Position numbers and translations under genes: made by a program
Shown: positions 12,170-36,414 of the stretch, piece after piece
How positions within the stretch are numbered: position 1 is the stretch's first letter
Layout of the letters: the number at the start of each line of letters is the position of its first letter
The notes under the pieces: model-generated
Seen by the model: the letters and a program-made list of their open reading frames with translations, nothing else
The model's database searches: none
What the model was told of the DNA's origin: nothing
Origin: Clostridiales bacterium
Lineage (GTDB): Bacteria; Bacillota; Clostridia; Saccharofermentanales; Saccharofermentanaceae
NCBI GenBank assembly: GCA_017561715.1
Contig: JAFZBN010000013.1
Span: forward strand, 1 to 64,000
DNA: 64,000 nt
Direction of reading: 5' to 3'

Positions 12170-12475
12170 ACAAAAACGCCCCGAAGCATCTTTCTTGCTT
12201 CAGGACGATCTATCATCGCGGTACCACCTGAATTGCTGTAATTACAGCCACCTCATCTGGGTTCTAGCAAACCCTGCCGCCTGACGCGCGGCTCTCGGCT
12301 TCCACTACTTTGCGTCTTGCGGCTTTTGTCGTACGCCGCCTTCGGCATTTCATTTTGCAGCTCGGAAGTGTTATTCACCTGTATTCACTCTATGGGGCTT
12401 ACACCGTCCCCCACTCGCTGGAAGCGATAAAACAGGCTACTTCTCTTCGTCATCGCTTTTTCCGTATTCAATTTG
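12170..12475 (-). promoter_or_regulatory. T-box riboswitch, Asn specifier (AAC), upstream of asnS-asnA
   Basis: Read on the minus strand this is a full T-box leader: stem I with the GATGACGAAGAG start and the distal CAGCGAG-type bulge; a specifier loop GAATAACACTTCCGAGC, in which AAC at 12372-12370 is the codon; the conserved T-box bulge in AATTCAGGTGGTACCGCG (12234-12217); and a terminator stem with GAAGC / GCTTC arms and a TTTTT run at about 12175-12170. Uncharged tRNA-Asn should stabilise the antiterminator and switch the operon on. The AAC reading also serves as the key for the second T-box at 25.1 kb. Confidence 0.95.
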
Positions 12476-12480
12476 AAGTT

Positions 12481-12509
12481 AGATTACTCTGCATACAATG
12501 GTTTGTCAA
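12481..12509 (-). promoter_or_regulatory. Promoter of the asnS-asnA T-box leader
   Basis: On the minus strand a perfect TTGACA (12509-12504) is followed after 17 bases by TAATCT (12486-12481). The -10 is only moderately good. The predicted start near 12474 lies just before stem I of the T-box. Confidence 0.6.
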
Positions 12510-12564
12510 GTCCCCGTAAGCGTTATGTAATCTTCATTATGATATAATGTGAAAAAACTGTTAG

Positions 12565-12592
12565 TTGACACGAAAAACGGGGAAGATATACT
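12565..12592 (+). promoter_or_regulatory. Promoter of the Wzz-like gene
   Basis: TTGACA (12565-12570) and TATACT (12587-12592) are 16 bases apart, about 45 bases before the ATG at 12643. A second -10-like TATAAT at 12543-12548 has no clear -35. Confidence 0.6.
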
Positions 12593-12642
12593 ACTTAGGA
12601 GCGCGTTTTCGGACGCCTTAGGTTTCATCACGGGAGAAAAAT

Positions 12643-14124
12643 ATGGAAAACAACGAAGTGCAGATCAGGATCCAGGACGTATTTGCCTCATTTTTAAAGT
12701 CGATTGTATGGATCGCGGCAATCACTATTTTCTTTGCAGGAGCGCTCGGTGCTTTCGGCATCTACAAAGCAAGACACACGAAGGTAAGCGGGGCTTACGC
12801 GGCGAACATCGCGACGAAAGAAAAAGAAGTCGCCGAGAAACAAGATGAGATCTTCAATCTTGAGAAAGAAAACGCAACAATCCGTGACGTTGATATTCCT
12901 TTCACGGAGAACCGTATCAAGAAAGAACAGGAATTAAGCGACAGCAGAAAAGAATATGCGTCTAACAGCATCTATCACTCCATCGACCCGTTCAACGCGG
13001 GCTGCGCGAAGATCACGATCGCGGTGCACGTAGAAATCCCTGAAGATATCGTTGACGATATGCCTGAATATCGCGATAACGAGCAGCGTCGCGCGGCGAA
13101 CGCCTGTGTTTCTATGTACCCTTTCACTGACCAGGCTCTCGAAAAGGTTCGCGGCATCCTCGGTGAAGACTGCGAACTGCGATATATCAAAGAACTCGTC
13201 AACATCACGAATATGAATAATCAGTTCGTCCGCCTTGATGTCTTCTATCCGGAACCGGAAAAGGCAAAAAAGGCTGCCGAGTATCTCTTCGGTGAAATGC
13301 AAAAGAGCATCACCGAGATCGATCCGGCTTTCTCCCTTTCCATTGTTACCGAATTCAGCGGATTTGAAGTCAACTGGCAGGTCTATGACGATCACTCCCT
13401 GCATTCCGATAAGGTCATCCTTGCCGAAAAGAACATGGCGGCGGACATGGATTCTCTGAACGAAAAGAACGCCAAACTGGATCTCAACACACAAAAGATC
13501 AATCTGGCGACCGGCGAACTGAACGCCCTGAACAATGAACTCTCCGCTGCTGAGAATGCTCTTGCCAACGCACGTCAGGCGCAGTCCGCGAAGAAAGGAC
13601 TCGTCAAATTCGGCCTGATCGGTGCTTTTGCGGGATTCTTCATCGCATGCGCATTCTTCTATCTGAAGTATCTCCTCGGCGGAAAGATCAGAAACAGAAA
13701 CAGCATCATCGGCCGTTATCCGTACCCGCTCCTGGGTGTCGTTCCGTCCACGAAGAAGTATCTGTTCGGTAAGACCATCAAGAGACTCGAGGGCGATCCG
13801 GTCTACGCGGATGACGACGTGATCACGGCGATCGCGGCCAACGCCCTTGCGATCGCGGATACCGAAGGTTCCACCGGAAACTGTCTGGTCGGCACCATCG
13901 AAGAAAAGGATCCGTCCCTGAAGGCGCTGAAGGAAGCTCTGGACGGCAAGGTCTCTTATGCCGGCAATATCCTCTCCGAAGCTCGCGCGGTAAAAGCACT
14001 TGATAAGTGCTCTCACGTGATCCTCGTTGAGAAGAGAAATGAGTCCCAGATCGATTCCCTTACGGAAGAGATCACCAAGCTTAAGTCCCTGAAGAAGGAG
14101 ATCCTCGGCATCATCCTTCTGTGA
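12643..14124 (+). CDS. Wzz/CapA-like polysaccharide co-polymerase protein
   Basis: A 493-residue protein with one membrane span near residues 20-42, a long predicted coiled coil and outside domain (about 50-315), a second span near residues 328-348, and a cytoplasmic tail that looks like a degraded BY-kinase-like domain without a Walker A. This is the plan of chain-length regulators of capsule or exopolysaccharide. No glycosyltransferase, flippase or kinase gene is adjacent, so it is an orphan and the role is inferred from topology only. The tail has an octamer copy at 13992. A strong hairpin terminator follows. Confidence 0.65.
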   Translation: MENNEVQIRIQDVFASFLKSIVWIAAITIFFAGALGAFGIYKARHTKVSGAYAANIATKEKEVAEKQDEIFNLEKENATIRDVDIPFTENRIKKEQELSDSRKEYASNSIYHSIDPFNAGCAKITIAVHVEIPEDIVDDMPEYRDNEQRRAANACVSMYPFTDQALEKVRGILGEDCELRYIKELVNITNMNNQFVRLDVFYPEPEKAKKAAEYLFGEMQKSITEIDPAFSLSIVTEFSGFEVNWQVYDDHSLHSDKVILAEKNMAADMDSLNEKNAKLDLNTQKINLATGELNALNNELSAAENALANARQAQSAKKGLVKFGLIGAFAGFFIACAFFYLKYLLGGKIRNRNSIIGRYPYPLLGVVPSTKKYLFGKTIKRLEGDPVYADDDVITAIAANALAIADTEGSTGNCLVGTIEEKDPSLKALKEALDGKVSYAGNILSEARAVKALDKCSHVILVEKRNESQIDSLTEEITKLKSLKKEILGIILL

Positions 14125-19391: not shown

Positions 19392-19684
19392 TCCCTGAAC
19401 ACGTCTCCGAAAGTTCTTTTGCAGAGACCGATTCAGGGATTTTCGTCATTTTCCTCTGAAACAGTCTCTGAAAGCAGGTTTACAGAGACTGAAACAGAGG
19501 AATTCGTCATTTTCCTCTGAAAGTGTCTCTGAAAGCAGGTTTACAGAGACTGAAACAGAGGAATTCGTCATTATCCTCTGAAAGTGTCTCCGAAAGCAAG
19601 TTTACAGAGACTGAAACAGAGGAATTCGTCATTTTCCTCTGAAACAGTCTCTGAAAGCAAGTTTACAGAGACTGTTTCAGAGAC
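19392..19684. repeat. Five tandem 61-bp units, each folding into a long hairpin
   Basis: Units start at 19392 (diverged), 19453, 19514, 19575 and 19636, all spaced exactly 61 bases. Each contains CCTCTG-AAA-CAGTCTCTG (or GTGTCTCTG), a 12-base loop, then CAGAGACTG-AAA-CAGAGG; the arms pair except for a symmetric AAA/AAA bulge. In the last unit the second AAA is TTT, giving a nearly perfect 18-bp stem. Units are joined by AATTCGTCATTTT. The period is not a multiple of three, so this is non-coding. It lies between carB and the HtrA gene and could act as a stacked terminator, RNA stabiliser or protein-binding array. Confidence 0.9.
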
Positions 19685-19804
19685 TTATTCCGACAATACC
19701 GCAGAATACGTCTTGGCAATATTACTTTTAAGTTATTTTAAAGTTGACGGGCTAGAGTATACTACAAGGTAGATGAAGCGTTTACCTTGTGAAGAAAGGA
19801 GACG

Positions 19805-25093: not shown

Positions 25094-25368
25094 GTTGAAA
25101 AGCTATGACGAAGAAGGTCGTGACCATTTCGCCTCACAGAGAGCCGACGCCTGCTGAAAGTCGGTATCCGGGATGATCCAGATGACTATCGCTTCCGAGC
25201 CGGTACACCGAATAAGTTTTTACTTGAGTAGACTGTACACGTAAGAGCCGCGTTAAGGCGAAGGGTTTGATAGAACCTATTAAGTGGCGAAAAGATTTCG
25301 CAAATTGAGTGGTACCGCGGTAAATAGCCGTCTCAATGTCCAAGGTGGACGTTGGGGCGTTTTTTATT
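25094..25368 (+). promoter_or_regulatory. T-box riboswitch, probable Ile specifier (AUC), upstream of an acyl-CoA ligase fusion
   Basis: All T-box parts are visible: stem I beginning TATGACGAAGAAGG, the CAGAGAG bulge, the antiterminator T-box in AAATTGAGTGGTACCGCGG (about 25303-25320), and a terminator hairpin, GTCTCAATGTCC paired with GGACGTTGGGGC, followed by a T6 run at 25360. The specifier region reads GACTATCGCTTCCGAGC. Aligned on the shared CTTCCGAGC with the asnS leader of this same window (AACACTTCCGAGC, Asn), the codon position reads ATC, isoleucine. Regulation of an acyl-CoA ligase by tRNA-Ile is unusual and is treated as a finding. Confidence 0.9.
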
Positions 25369-33384: not shown

Positions 33385-34527
33385 ATGGCTACAAAAGTAG
33401 ATATCTTCTCCGGATTCTTAGGTGCCGGAAAGACAACACTCATCAAGAAACTCATCTCTGACGGCTATAACGGTCAGAAGCTCGTTCTCATCGAGAATGA
33501 ATTCGGTCAGATCGGTATCGACGGAGGATTCTTAAAGGAAGCCGGCATTGAGATCACCGAGATGAACTCCGGTTGCATCTGCTGCTCCCTCGTAGGCGAC
33601 TTCGGTACAGCTCTCAAGGAAGTCATCGACAAGTATTCTCCGGACCGCATCCTCATCGAGCCCTCCGGCGTCGGCAAGCTTTCTGACGTAGTCGCTGCCG
33701 TTGAGAAGGTCGAAGGCACCGAAGTATGCGGCACCGTTACCGTCATCGACGCGAGCAAGTGCAAGATCTACCTGAAAAACTTCAAGGAGTTCTACGAGAA
33801 CCAGATCAAATACGCAGGCACGATCATCCTGTCCAGAACAGGCAACATCGCGCAGGGCAAGCTCGACACGGCGATCGAACTGATCCGCGAGATCAACGAT
33901 CACTCCCAGATCATCACGACACCTTGGGAAAAGCTCTCTGGCGTACAGATCAGAGAAGCGATCGAGAATCCGCTCACCGCTGACGATATGGCTGCCGCTC
34001 TCCTCGAGGCGGAAGAGCATGCACACCATCATCACCACCATGATCATGATCACGACGAGCACGATCACGAACATGAGCACGAGCATCATCATGACCACGA
34101 TCACGATGAACATGAACATCACCATCACGACCATGAAGAGCATGAACACCATCATGATCACGAGCACGAGCATGAACACCACCACGACCATGGTCCGGAC
34201 TGCACATGCGGATGCCACGATCACGACCATGATCACGAAGGCCATCACCACGCTGACGAAGTCTTCGATTCCATCGGATTCGAGACATCCAAGTCCTTCT
34301 CCGAGGCAGCGATCAAGGCAGCTCTCGAAGAACTCGACAGCGGCGATTTCGGCATGATCCTCCGCGCCAAGGGTATCGTTTCCGGCGAGGACGGAAACTG
34401 GATCCACTTCGACTATGTACCGGGTGAAGCAGATGTCAGAACAGGCGCTGCCGACGTAACCGGTAAGCTCTGCGTCATCGGCTCCAAGGTAGACAAAGAA
34501 GCGCTGAAGGTGCTTTTCGGACTGTAA
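33385..34527 (+). CDS. His-rich CobW/COG0523-family metallochaperone GTPase
   Basis: A 380-residue G3E GTPase with Walker A GFLGAGKTT (about residue 10), the metal-binding motif GCICCSL (about 63) and a CobW_C-like domain at the end. Between them lies an exceptional run of about 80 residues (34018-34260) made almost only of His, Asp and Glu, with a small TCGCHDHD insert. Such runs bind zinc or nickel and are used for storage or delivery to client enzymes. The two genes probably form a metal-supply unit; loss or shortage of zinc is the usual inducer of this family. AGAAGGAAAC precedes the ATG. Confidence 0.9.
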   Translation: MATKVDIFSGFLGAGKTTLIKKLISDGYNGQKLVLIENEFGQIGIDGGFLKEAGIEITEMNSGCICCSLVGDFGTALKEVIDKYSPDRILIEPSGVGKLSDVVAAVEKVEGTEVCGTVTVIDASKCKIYLKNFKEFYENQIKYAGTIILSRTGNIAQGKLDTAIELIREINDHSQIITTPWEKLSGVQIREAIENPLTADDMAAALLEAEEHAHHHHHHDHDHDEHDHEHEHEHHHDHDHDEHEHHHHDHEEHEHHHDHEHEHEHHHDHGPDCTCGCHDHDHDHEGHHHADEVFDSIGFETSKSFSEAAIKAALEELDSGDFGMILRAKGIVSGEDGNWIHFDYVPGEADVRTGAADVTGKLCVIGSKVDKEALKVLFGL

Positions 34528-34585
34528 GAAGTTCGCCCGATCGACCGATACGATCTTCGCGAAACCTGCGCATCACGTCAAATGA

Positions 34586-34614
34586 AAAAGGCTGTCTCAA
34601 TGAGGCAGCCTTTT
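34586..34614. terminator. Bidirectional terminator after the COG0523 operon
   Basis: AAAAGGCTGTCTC and GAGGCAGCCTTTT pair with one mismatch. The minus-strand T-run could also end a transcript coming from the candidate RNA at 34653-34865. Confidence 0.8.
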
Positions 34615-34652
34615 CACATATAGGCGGAAATTAGTTATGGTCAGTCTTTTGA

Positions 34653-34865
34653 GATGGCAAATACCGCGTTGTATCCTCATTCACAAAAAACAACCCCAAC
34701 CTAGAAGGAGCCCCGCACACGGCGCTGATGAGTGACCACCGCACTACGAGCTAGAATTGGCACATTGCCATCACGCCTGATTCAAAAGCCAAAACACATA
34801 AGCACAGGGATATGCTTACCACACACACAGGCTTTTGCCTCATAACCCCGCAGTATTTGCCATCA
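34653..34865 (-). ncRNA. Candidate structured non-coding RNA
   Basis: GATGGCAAATACCGCG (34653-34668) and CGCAGTATTTGCCATC (34849-34864) form a 16-bp closing stem about 210 bases apart; the one irregular pair is a G-U wobble only if the minus strand is transcribed. Inside are a further 8-bp stem (34783-34790 with 34830-34837), capped by a 6-bp stem (34799-34804 with 34813-34818), and several shorter hairpins. On the minus strand, TTGCAT (34900-34895), 17 bases and TAATAT (34877-34872) place a start near 34865, exactly at the closing stem. No ORF is present. The type of RNA is unknown; 6S or raiA-like RNAs would have this size and shape. Confidence 0.55.
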
Positions 34866-35067
34866 CAAACCATATTACCATGCGTATTATGCGCATGCAA
34901 TGAGATTTTTCGAAAAAATATCAAATACTAAATCGGTTAAAACTAATTAACATTTTTGATTTCTCCCCTATGTACGCGCGCGTGTTTTCTTTTCGCTTTA
35001 TTTCTGATACACTACGTTGGTGTCAGAGTTTTTCTGACGTTTCATTTTCAGTATCAACGGGGATCTC

Positions 35068-36414
35068 ATGAGAAAGTTAACGACACGAGAAATTTCATTT
35101 AAGGACCATTTCACATATGGCAGTATTTTCCGTTTCGTCATGCCTACGATCCTGATGATGCTCTTCACTTCCATGTACGGCGTCGTCGACGGACTTTACG
35201 TCAACAACTATGTCGGAAAGCACGCGTTCGCCGCGGTTACCCTGATCACTCCGCTTCCGCTTCTCATCGGCGCATTTGCCTACATGATCGGTGGTGGCGG
35301 TGCCGCGATCATCGCGCAGGAACTCGCTCGTGGTGAGAAGAAAAAAGCGAGCCGCTACTTCACTTCCCTGACATGCGTTTCCATCATCGGCGCATTCATC
35401 CTGGCTTTCTTCGGAGAGATCCTTCTCGGGCCGATCGCGGAGCTCATGGGCGCGGACGAAGAGATGCTTCCGGTGTGCCTCAACTACGGCCGCATCCTTA
35501 TCTTCAGTATTCCTTTCTACGTTCTTCAGAACGTTTTCCAGAGTTTTCTTACCGCAGCAGAAAAACCGAAGATCGGTCTTGCGATCAACCTTTTCTCTGC
35601 CGCGGTCAACCTCTTTCTTGACTATATCTTCGTCGGTGTTCTGGACATGGGCGTTACCGGTGCCGCGCAGGCCACGGTCGTTTCTCAGGTGATCGGCGGT
35701 CTCCTTCCTTTCGTCTATATCATCGCGAGCAAGAGCTGCCCGCTTTCTTTCACCCGCCCCGAGTGGATCGGCGAGATCATGGGCAATGTCTTCGCCAACG
35801 GTGTTTCCGAGTTCGTCAGTGAGATCTTCCATCCTCTGGCGAGCGTCATGTACAACTACCGTCTCATGAAACTCGTCGGATTGAACGGCGTCGCCGCGTA
35901 CGGTGTCCTTATGAACGTCGGCTTCCTTTTCGGCGCGGTATTCCTTGGCTTTGCCGTCGGTGTCGCCCCGATCTTCAGTTACCAGTACGAAGTCAAAAAC
36001 TACGAGGAGCTGCATAAGACATTTAAGAAGAGTGCGATCTTCGTTGTCGTCATGGGCTTTGTCCTTTACGGCATCGCGCTCTGCATCGAAGGTCCTTTCG
36101 CCAAGCTCTTCTTCGGCAGCGACGAAGCGCTTCTGCATATGACCGAAGAAGGATTCGCGCTCCACAGTAAATCCTACATGGTCATGGGTCTTGCGGTATT
36201 CACCTCGGCCTTCTTCACCGCGCTCCACAACAGTAAGGTGTCCGCCCTGATCTCGTTCTTGAGAACGCTTCTTTTCGAAGTCCTGGCGATCATCATACTG
36301 CCGCATTTCTTCGAGCTCAACGGCATCTGGGCGGCCAGCCTCGTCGCCGAGATCCTGGCGCTTTTCGTAACGATCCTGCTTCTTGTCAGAAACCAAAAGC
36401 AGTATCACTACTGA
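35068..36414 (+). CDS. MATE-family efflux transporter
   Basis: A 448-residue protein with about 12 membrane spans in two six-helix halves, typical of the MATE/NorM family, which exports drugs and metabolites using a Na+ or H+ gradient. Recognisable segments are VMPTILMMLFTSMYGVVDGLYV and IGGGGAAIIAQELARGEKKKA. It is followed by a second MATE gene after about 60 bases, which contains an octamer copy (36421). The 200 bases before it are AT-rich and hold no clear gene. Confidence 0.9.
   Translation: MRKLTTREISFKDHFTYGSIFRFVMPTILMMLFTSMYGVVDGLYVNNYVGKHAFAAVTLITPLPLLIGAFAYMIGGGGAAIIAQELARGEKKKASRYFTSLTCVSIIGAFILAFFGEILLGPIAELMGADEEMLPVCLNYGRILIFSIPFYVLQNVFQSFLTAAEKPKIGLAINLFSAAVNLFLDYIFVGVLDMGVTGAAQATVVSQVIGGLLPFVYIIASKSCPLSFTRPEWIGEIMGNVFANGVSEFVSEIFHPLASVMYNYRLMKLVGLNGVAAYGVLMNVGFLFGAVFLGFAVGVAPIFSYQYEVKNYEELHKTFKKSAIFVVVMGFVLYGIALCIEGPFAKLFFGSDEALLHMTEEGFALHSKSYMVMGLAVFTSAFFTALHNSKVSALISFLRTLLFEVLAIIILPHFFELNGIWAASLVAEILALFVTILLLVRNQKQYHY

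Follow-up and report, generated by a model that had tools for sequence, protein, structure and literature searches.

Staphylococcal RNAIII combines long-range closing helices and a pyrimidine-rich motif that pairs with Shine-Dalgarno sequences with coregulation with secreted-protein genes, and these features would have their counterparts in the putative small RNA described here, which lies in a 64,000-nucleotide stretch of DNA (the window) from an uncultured rumen clostridium. There is no sequence relation between RNAIII and this RNA, and no agr genes are shown beside the latter; the analogy serves as a lead only. A second described system, 6S RNA (RF00013), is likewise an RNA of ~200 nt closed by a long end stem, but the present RNA differs in having a branched interior and no match to the 6S model, and the genome contains a separate 6S candidate. 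The raiA/ModT RNA (RF03072), whose consensus motif corresponds to the first 215 nt and whose published consensus comprises two pseudoknots and eight stems, shares with the present RNA a folded core of ~210 nt, its own sigma-A type promoter, a terminator extension, and occurrence in Bacillota (PMC11706538). Whereas raiA/ModT is found in >2,500 species, the present RNA is known from a handful of species within a single genus, and the Rfam model of raiA/ModT finds no match here at any reported threshold.

A sequence-only reading of the window had suggested 6S and raiA as identities for the RNA; to the extent that the models can decide, it is neither. Rfam searches of positions 34530-35067 at E values up to 10 gave no match to RF00013 and none beyond chance to any other family, and the copy of the RNA in the most diverged carrier (G012) gave none beyond chance at E values up to 5. 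RF03072 had no match in the window, in the G012 homolog, or in 41 relatives, the last of these searches having been run without a positive control. The genome's 6S candidate, at G000:C21:270584-270771, scores 41.9 bits (E = 4e-7), short of the curated cut-off of 46.4, and such a candidate is present in 26 of the 26 genomes searched. Thus, although its length and layout (a ~212-nt core with its own promoter and terminator) resemble those of raiA/ModT, it is extremely unlikely that the RNA is an unrecognised member of a known family, be it 6S, raiA/ModT, or another. With gathering and permissive thresholds alike, the only Rfam matches in the window were T-boxes elsewhere, of which two leaders exceed the cut-off (12198-12462 on the minus strand and 25096-25338 on the plus strand), each located just 5′ of a large ORF.

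A Putative Structured RNA in the cobW-MATE Gap

The interval that separates cobW (33385-34527, plus strand) from a MATE gene (35068-36414, plus strand) contains a 212-nt segment on the minus strand, running from 34864 to 34653, that is closed by a 16-bp stem, P1. The 5′ arm of P1, GATGGCAAATACTGCG (34849-34864, minus strand), and its 3′ arm, CGCGGTATTTGCCATC (34653-34668, minus strand), form 15 Watson-Crick pairs and one G-U pair, with 180 nt between them, in agreement with the 16-bp closing stem, about 210 bases apart, that had been proposed at the outset. When the full 64 kb was scanned for inverted repeats, eight pairs of at least 13 nt within 400 bp were found, and P1 is the sole pair among them that is at least 90% complementary and has its arms separated by more than 100 nt. 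Another gap between ORFs, at 19455-19693, holds inverted repeats of CTCTGAAACAGTCTCTGAAA that are related to one another.

The RNA fold of positions 34640-34880 on the minus strand has a predicted energy of −86.4 kcal/mol (z = −3.28), and a fold as good was obtained in 1 of 200 shuffles. The plus strand folds well too, because the closing stem is symmetric; therefore, energy alone does not give the strand. The predicted interior comprises an 8-bp stem, P2 (34830-34837/34783-34790; CAAAAGCC/GGCTTTTG), which encloses a 9-bp hairpin stem, P3 (34811-34819/34798-34806), with GCATATCC at its tip, and a two-part hairpin of 13 bp, P5 (34737-34750/34712-34724), all on the minus strand. The earlier proposal of inner 8-bp and 6-bp stems came close to these predicted helices. 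Adjoining P5, at 34691-34711 on the minus strand, is the pyrimidine-rich motif TCCTTCTAGGTTGGGGTTG, which resembles a Shine-Dalgarno complement and may have a pairing role.

Transcription Signals and Coding Potential

A promoter-like site was read from the sequence on the minus strand at 34872-34900, and ends 7 nt upstream of the 212-nt fold. It consists of TTGCAT (34895-34900), a 17-nt spacer, and the extended −10 element TGG-TAATAT (34872-34877), the latter corresponding to TGGTAATAT, so that transcription would start at about 34865-34867. The site was missed by a consensus scan because its −35 element is weak (3/6), but the site is kept in four species—those of the window, G014, G007, and G012, the last in the form ATTGCAC...ATGGTAAGATG. 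A promoter with 17-base spacing, starting at the closing stem, had been part of the original proposal.

On the 3′ side, a terminator-type hairpin with a T run lies at 34585-34614 (minus strand), where a same-strand terminator had been anticipated, and a homologous hairpin follows the RNA in G012. This hairpin, probably shared with the convergent cobW gene, is missing from the minus-strand terminator scan because its U-run is mostly paired. A near-identical terminator hairpin (AAAAAGGCTGTCTC...GGCAGCC) recurs at many loci across the genus.

No ORF is conserved among the copies of the RNA, which bears out the statement that none explains it: single-base indels among copies that are 90-98% identical disrupt the only frame, a 57-codon ORF (34751-34924). 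A coding role was accordingly rejected, the frames not being conserved between copies. In having its own promoter and terminator, both recognized by sequence only, and no conserved ORF, the locus would fit an independent, trans-acting small RNA.

Conservation and Compensatory Changes

The RNA is carried by four species of one genus (4 of its 23 genomes), adjoining the same cobW gene in each, and the carriers in the cobW tree are G007, G000 (the genome of the window), G014, and G012. Identity to the window copy is 95% in G014, 90% in G007, and ~50% (interior) in G012. The G012 copy also lies next to cobW, on the corresponding side, in flanks that are 15-25% identical, and the four-fold sites of cobW and MATE differ by about 0.47 between G012 and the window. 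Nevertheless, G012 retains unchanged the 14 nt that open the 5′ arm of P1 and the 12 nt that end its 3′ arm, and neither stretch differs among the four species. Lack of such conservation had been named at the outset as counting against the proposed RNA; the arms proved to be conserved. Also kept in G012 are P3 with its GCATATCC tip, CTCGTAG, TCCTyCTAGGnnGGGG, and the terminator; the interior of the copies conserves blocks of sequence without a frame.

Beyond these species, searching with a covariance model of the RNA brought up no additional member among 148 relatives, 115 genomes of the family, or 188 of the order (overlapping sets), and a search of 85k genomes for the exact-arm pattern with 11-nt arms returned only three members of the genus and one chance match in coding sequence. 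G022, a close relative, lacks the RNA, with MATE following 62 bp after cobW, and in G006 a contig edge falls at the cobW site. The gap in G009 (L098), also without the RNA, contains several copies of a TACGACTAAA-type repeat, seen in L060. Viral and phage collections gave no convincing match; one viral/phage contig (L086, 12629-12648, in the intergenic region 12500-12690) shares TCCTTCTAGGnnnGGGGTTG and GATGCGATAG, but has no stem and no match to the model, and was set aside as probably chance. This patchy distribution within the genus counts against the proposed small-RNA gene, which would be lineage-restricted.

In the four-sequence alignment, 92.6% of the cells of the predicted structure are paired. 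Five pairs have changed on both sides, compared with a shuffle mean of 1.2 (1 of 500 shuffles was as high) and at most 2 in slid versions, a count that comes from four sequences, three of them close, and rests largely on one diverged sequence. The structure tested was derived from the same four-sequence alignment. Within P3 (34798-34819), which G012 keeps, an A-U pair has become G-C by changes on both sides. P5 (34712-34750), which starts with the invariant CTCGTAG, has been rebuilt with different pairs: TGCGGTG/CGCCGTG and CTCGTA/TGCGGG in the window correspond to GCGAAAA/TTTTTGT and CTCGT/ACGAG in G012. P2 (34783-34837) is kept in part in G012 (AAAAG/CTTTT), P4 is not kept in this diverged copy, and the pyrimidine-rich motif is present as TCCTyCTAGGnnGGGG in 4/4 species. 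Changes on one side that keep a standard pair were found in P1, P3, and P5 (U-G/U-A, C-G/U-G, or G-C/G-U); on the plus strand these would be A-C mismatches, and hence they fit the minus strand only. The minus-strand assignment, originally argued in part from a single wobble pair, is borne out in this way, and the four homologs, the kept arms and promoter, and the paired changes together support a structured RNA on the minus strand that has a promoter and a terminator of its own.

Recurrence of the Arms and Start Motif

A search of the window's own genome for the arms revealed a second inverted pair of an exact 14-mer, GATGGCAAATACTG, spanning 586 bp (G000:C21:258255-258840; L122:2756-3341), with no further inverted pair at up to two mismatches. 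On the transcribed strand, this second locus begins with a homologous promoter region and has an arm near +1; a ribosome-binding site then precedes an NlpC/P60 gene (PF00877), and behind the inverse arm comes a gene for a 740-aa lipoprotein with a weak, below-cut-off match to SBP_bac_1; the only Rfam match there is a tRNA. Its upstream region aligns locally with that of the RNA (34907-34973, minus strand), none of 1000 shuffles aligning as well. The upstream core ATTTAGTATTTGAT (34920-34933, minus strand) is partly kept in G012.

Identical inverted ends around different contents at two places in one genome are what would be expected of recombination or transposition ends—an invertible segment or MITE-like element with the interior as cargo. 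Such an origin is nonetheless very improbable: similarity between the loci does not stop at the inverted ends but runs ~110 bp beyond the arms, the RNA copies occupy the same site in the same orientation in 4/4 cases, no target-site duplication is seen in the window or second-locus sequences, and the genome has no additional inverted pairs at up to two mismatches.

In G011 and G015, the place that the RNA takes in other species within the cobW-MATE gap (L101 and L100, respectively) is occupied by a homologous gene for a lipoprotein of 736-738 aa, read in the direction of the RNA. Its promoter, ATGGTARRATG...ATGGCAAATA, has the same −10/+1 motif without a second arm. Beyond a core of ~22 bases, the upstream regions of the two genomes give no clear alignment with that of the RNA, so that homology of these regions rests on position and on the core. 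The occurrence of the start motif without the RNA in these two genomes suggests that its first role may be transcriptional. The shared site, strand, and −10/+1 motif, together with a 30-codon ORF in the window copy that has the look of a signal peptide, could also mean that the RNA is a decayed lipoprotein gene, retaining the promoter and leader seen in G011 and G015 ahead of remnant sequence. This is very unlikely, given that the RNA copies are well conserved with their structure kept while frames differ between them, and that the interior shows only short chance matches to the lipoprotein genes.

The main rival to an RNA is a purely DNA-level operator pair, in which a regulator would bind GATGGCAAATAC at +1 and an inverted copy 200-570 bp downstream to repress by looping, the transcript being incidental or a decayed gene. 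The arms are indeed invariant in sequence, beyond mere complementarity; they recur at the same +1 position at another promoter of the genome, and a single copy stands at +1 of the G011 and G015 lipoprotein genes. DNA sites, however, need neither the compensatory changes that keep P3 and P5 nor the alternation between G-U and Watson-Crick pairs at the variable arm positions, and the interior conserves blocks of sequence without a frame. With the inner compensatory changes thus unaccounted for, operators without a functional RNA are judged unlikely. Conservation of the arms in exact sequence does suggest that the sequence itself is recognised, whether by a promoter regulator, a pairing partner, or both.

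Elsewhere in the genus, nlpC-SBP operons lack the motif, and this holds for the RNA carriers G007 and G012 too; as the arms of the second locus are not kept there, that operon is not a conserved target. ATGGCAAATAC was considered as the mark of a regulon and rejected, since its genus-wide excess over a reversed control lies mostly inside genes when the contexts are read. In G007 (L159), the nlpC-SBP genes are preceded by a fragment of an AgrC-like kinase and by a peptide of 47 aa whose match to AgrD (TIGR04223) stays below threshold, at 17.1 bits versus 19; these neighbours hint at quorum-sensing control of this operon type.

Proposed Function and Implications

The cobW-MATE gap very probably encodes a folded RNA of ~210 bases with its own promoter and terminator; from the likely start to the terminator, the gene would be ~280 nt in length, of which the folded core accounts for 212 nt. 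On balance, the evidence favours a free-standing small-RNA gene, convergent to cobW, that would be coexpressed with secreted-protein genes and whose product would act as a base-pairing regulator. In the most economical account, the RNA would sit behind a promoter type also used by secreted lipoprotein and NlpC genes, and a shared regulator would drive them together; coregulation with secreted-protein genes is probable, and action on such genes is possible.

The nlpC leader and the nlpC-SBP junction carry complements of the arms and of the Shine-Dalgarno-complementary motif, and cofolding with the RNA yields predicted gains of −7.6 kcal/mol for the nlpC leader and −10.7 kcal/mol for the SBP leader, compared with a median of −0.1 when 38 window leaders were cofolded as controls, one of which does comparably well (−8.9). 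These pairing energies make pairing at the two sites possible, but the candidate sites are not conserved along with the RNA. Mechanistically, the closing stem could guard both ends and hold the pairing sequences until it opens, whereupon the freed arms and the pyrimidine-rich motif could pair with the nlpC leader and the nlpC-SBP junction. The start motif may be the older element, which a 3′ arm then turned into a closing stem.

A more far-reaching version, regarded as quite doubtful, is that promoter and inverted arms form an exchangeable frame that can be filled in different ways, with a structured RNA beside cobW and with an nlpC message at the second locus. The long-range stem would then serve as an RNA switch common to both. 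The small RNA would compete with its protein-coding counterpart for one and the same pairing sequence, and the identical arms would let an sRNA and an mRNA of a single regulon regulate each other.

Taken as a small-RNA gene, the locus adds a structured RNA without an Rfam family from uncultured rumen clostridia. It may also offer a rare view of a young RNA gene, for at one chromosomal site some sister lineages carry the RNA, some a lipoprotein gene that shares its −10/+1 motif, and others neither of these. The arms held in common with a second locus of the same genome provide a direct, testable hypothesis of regulation.
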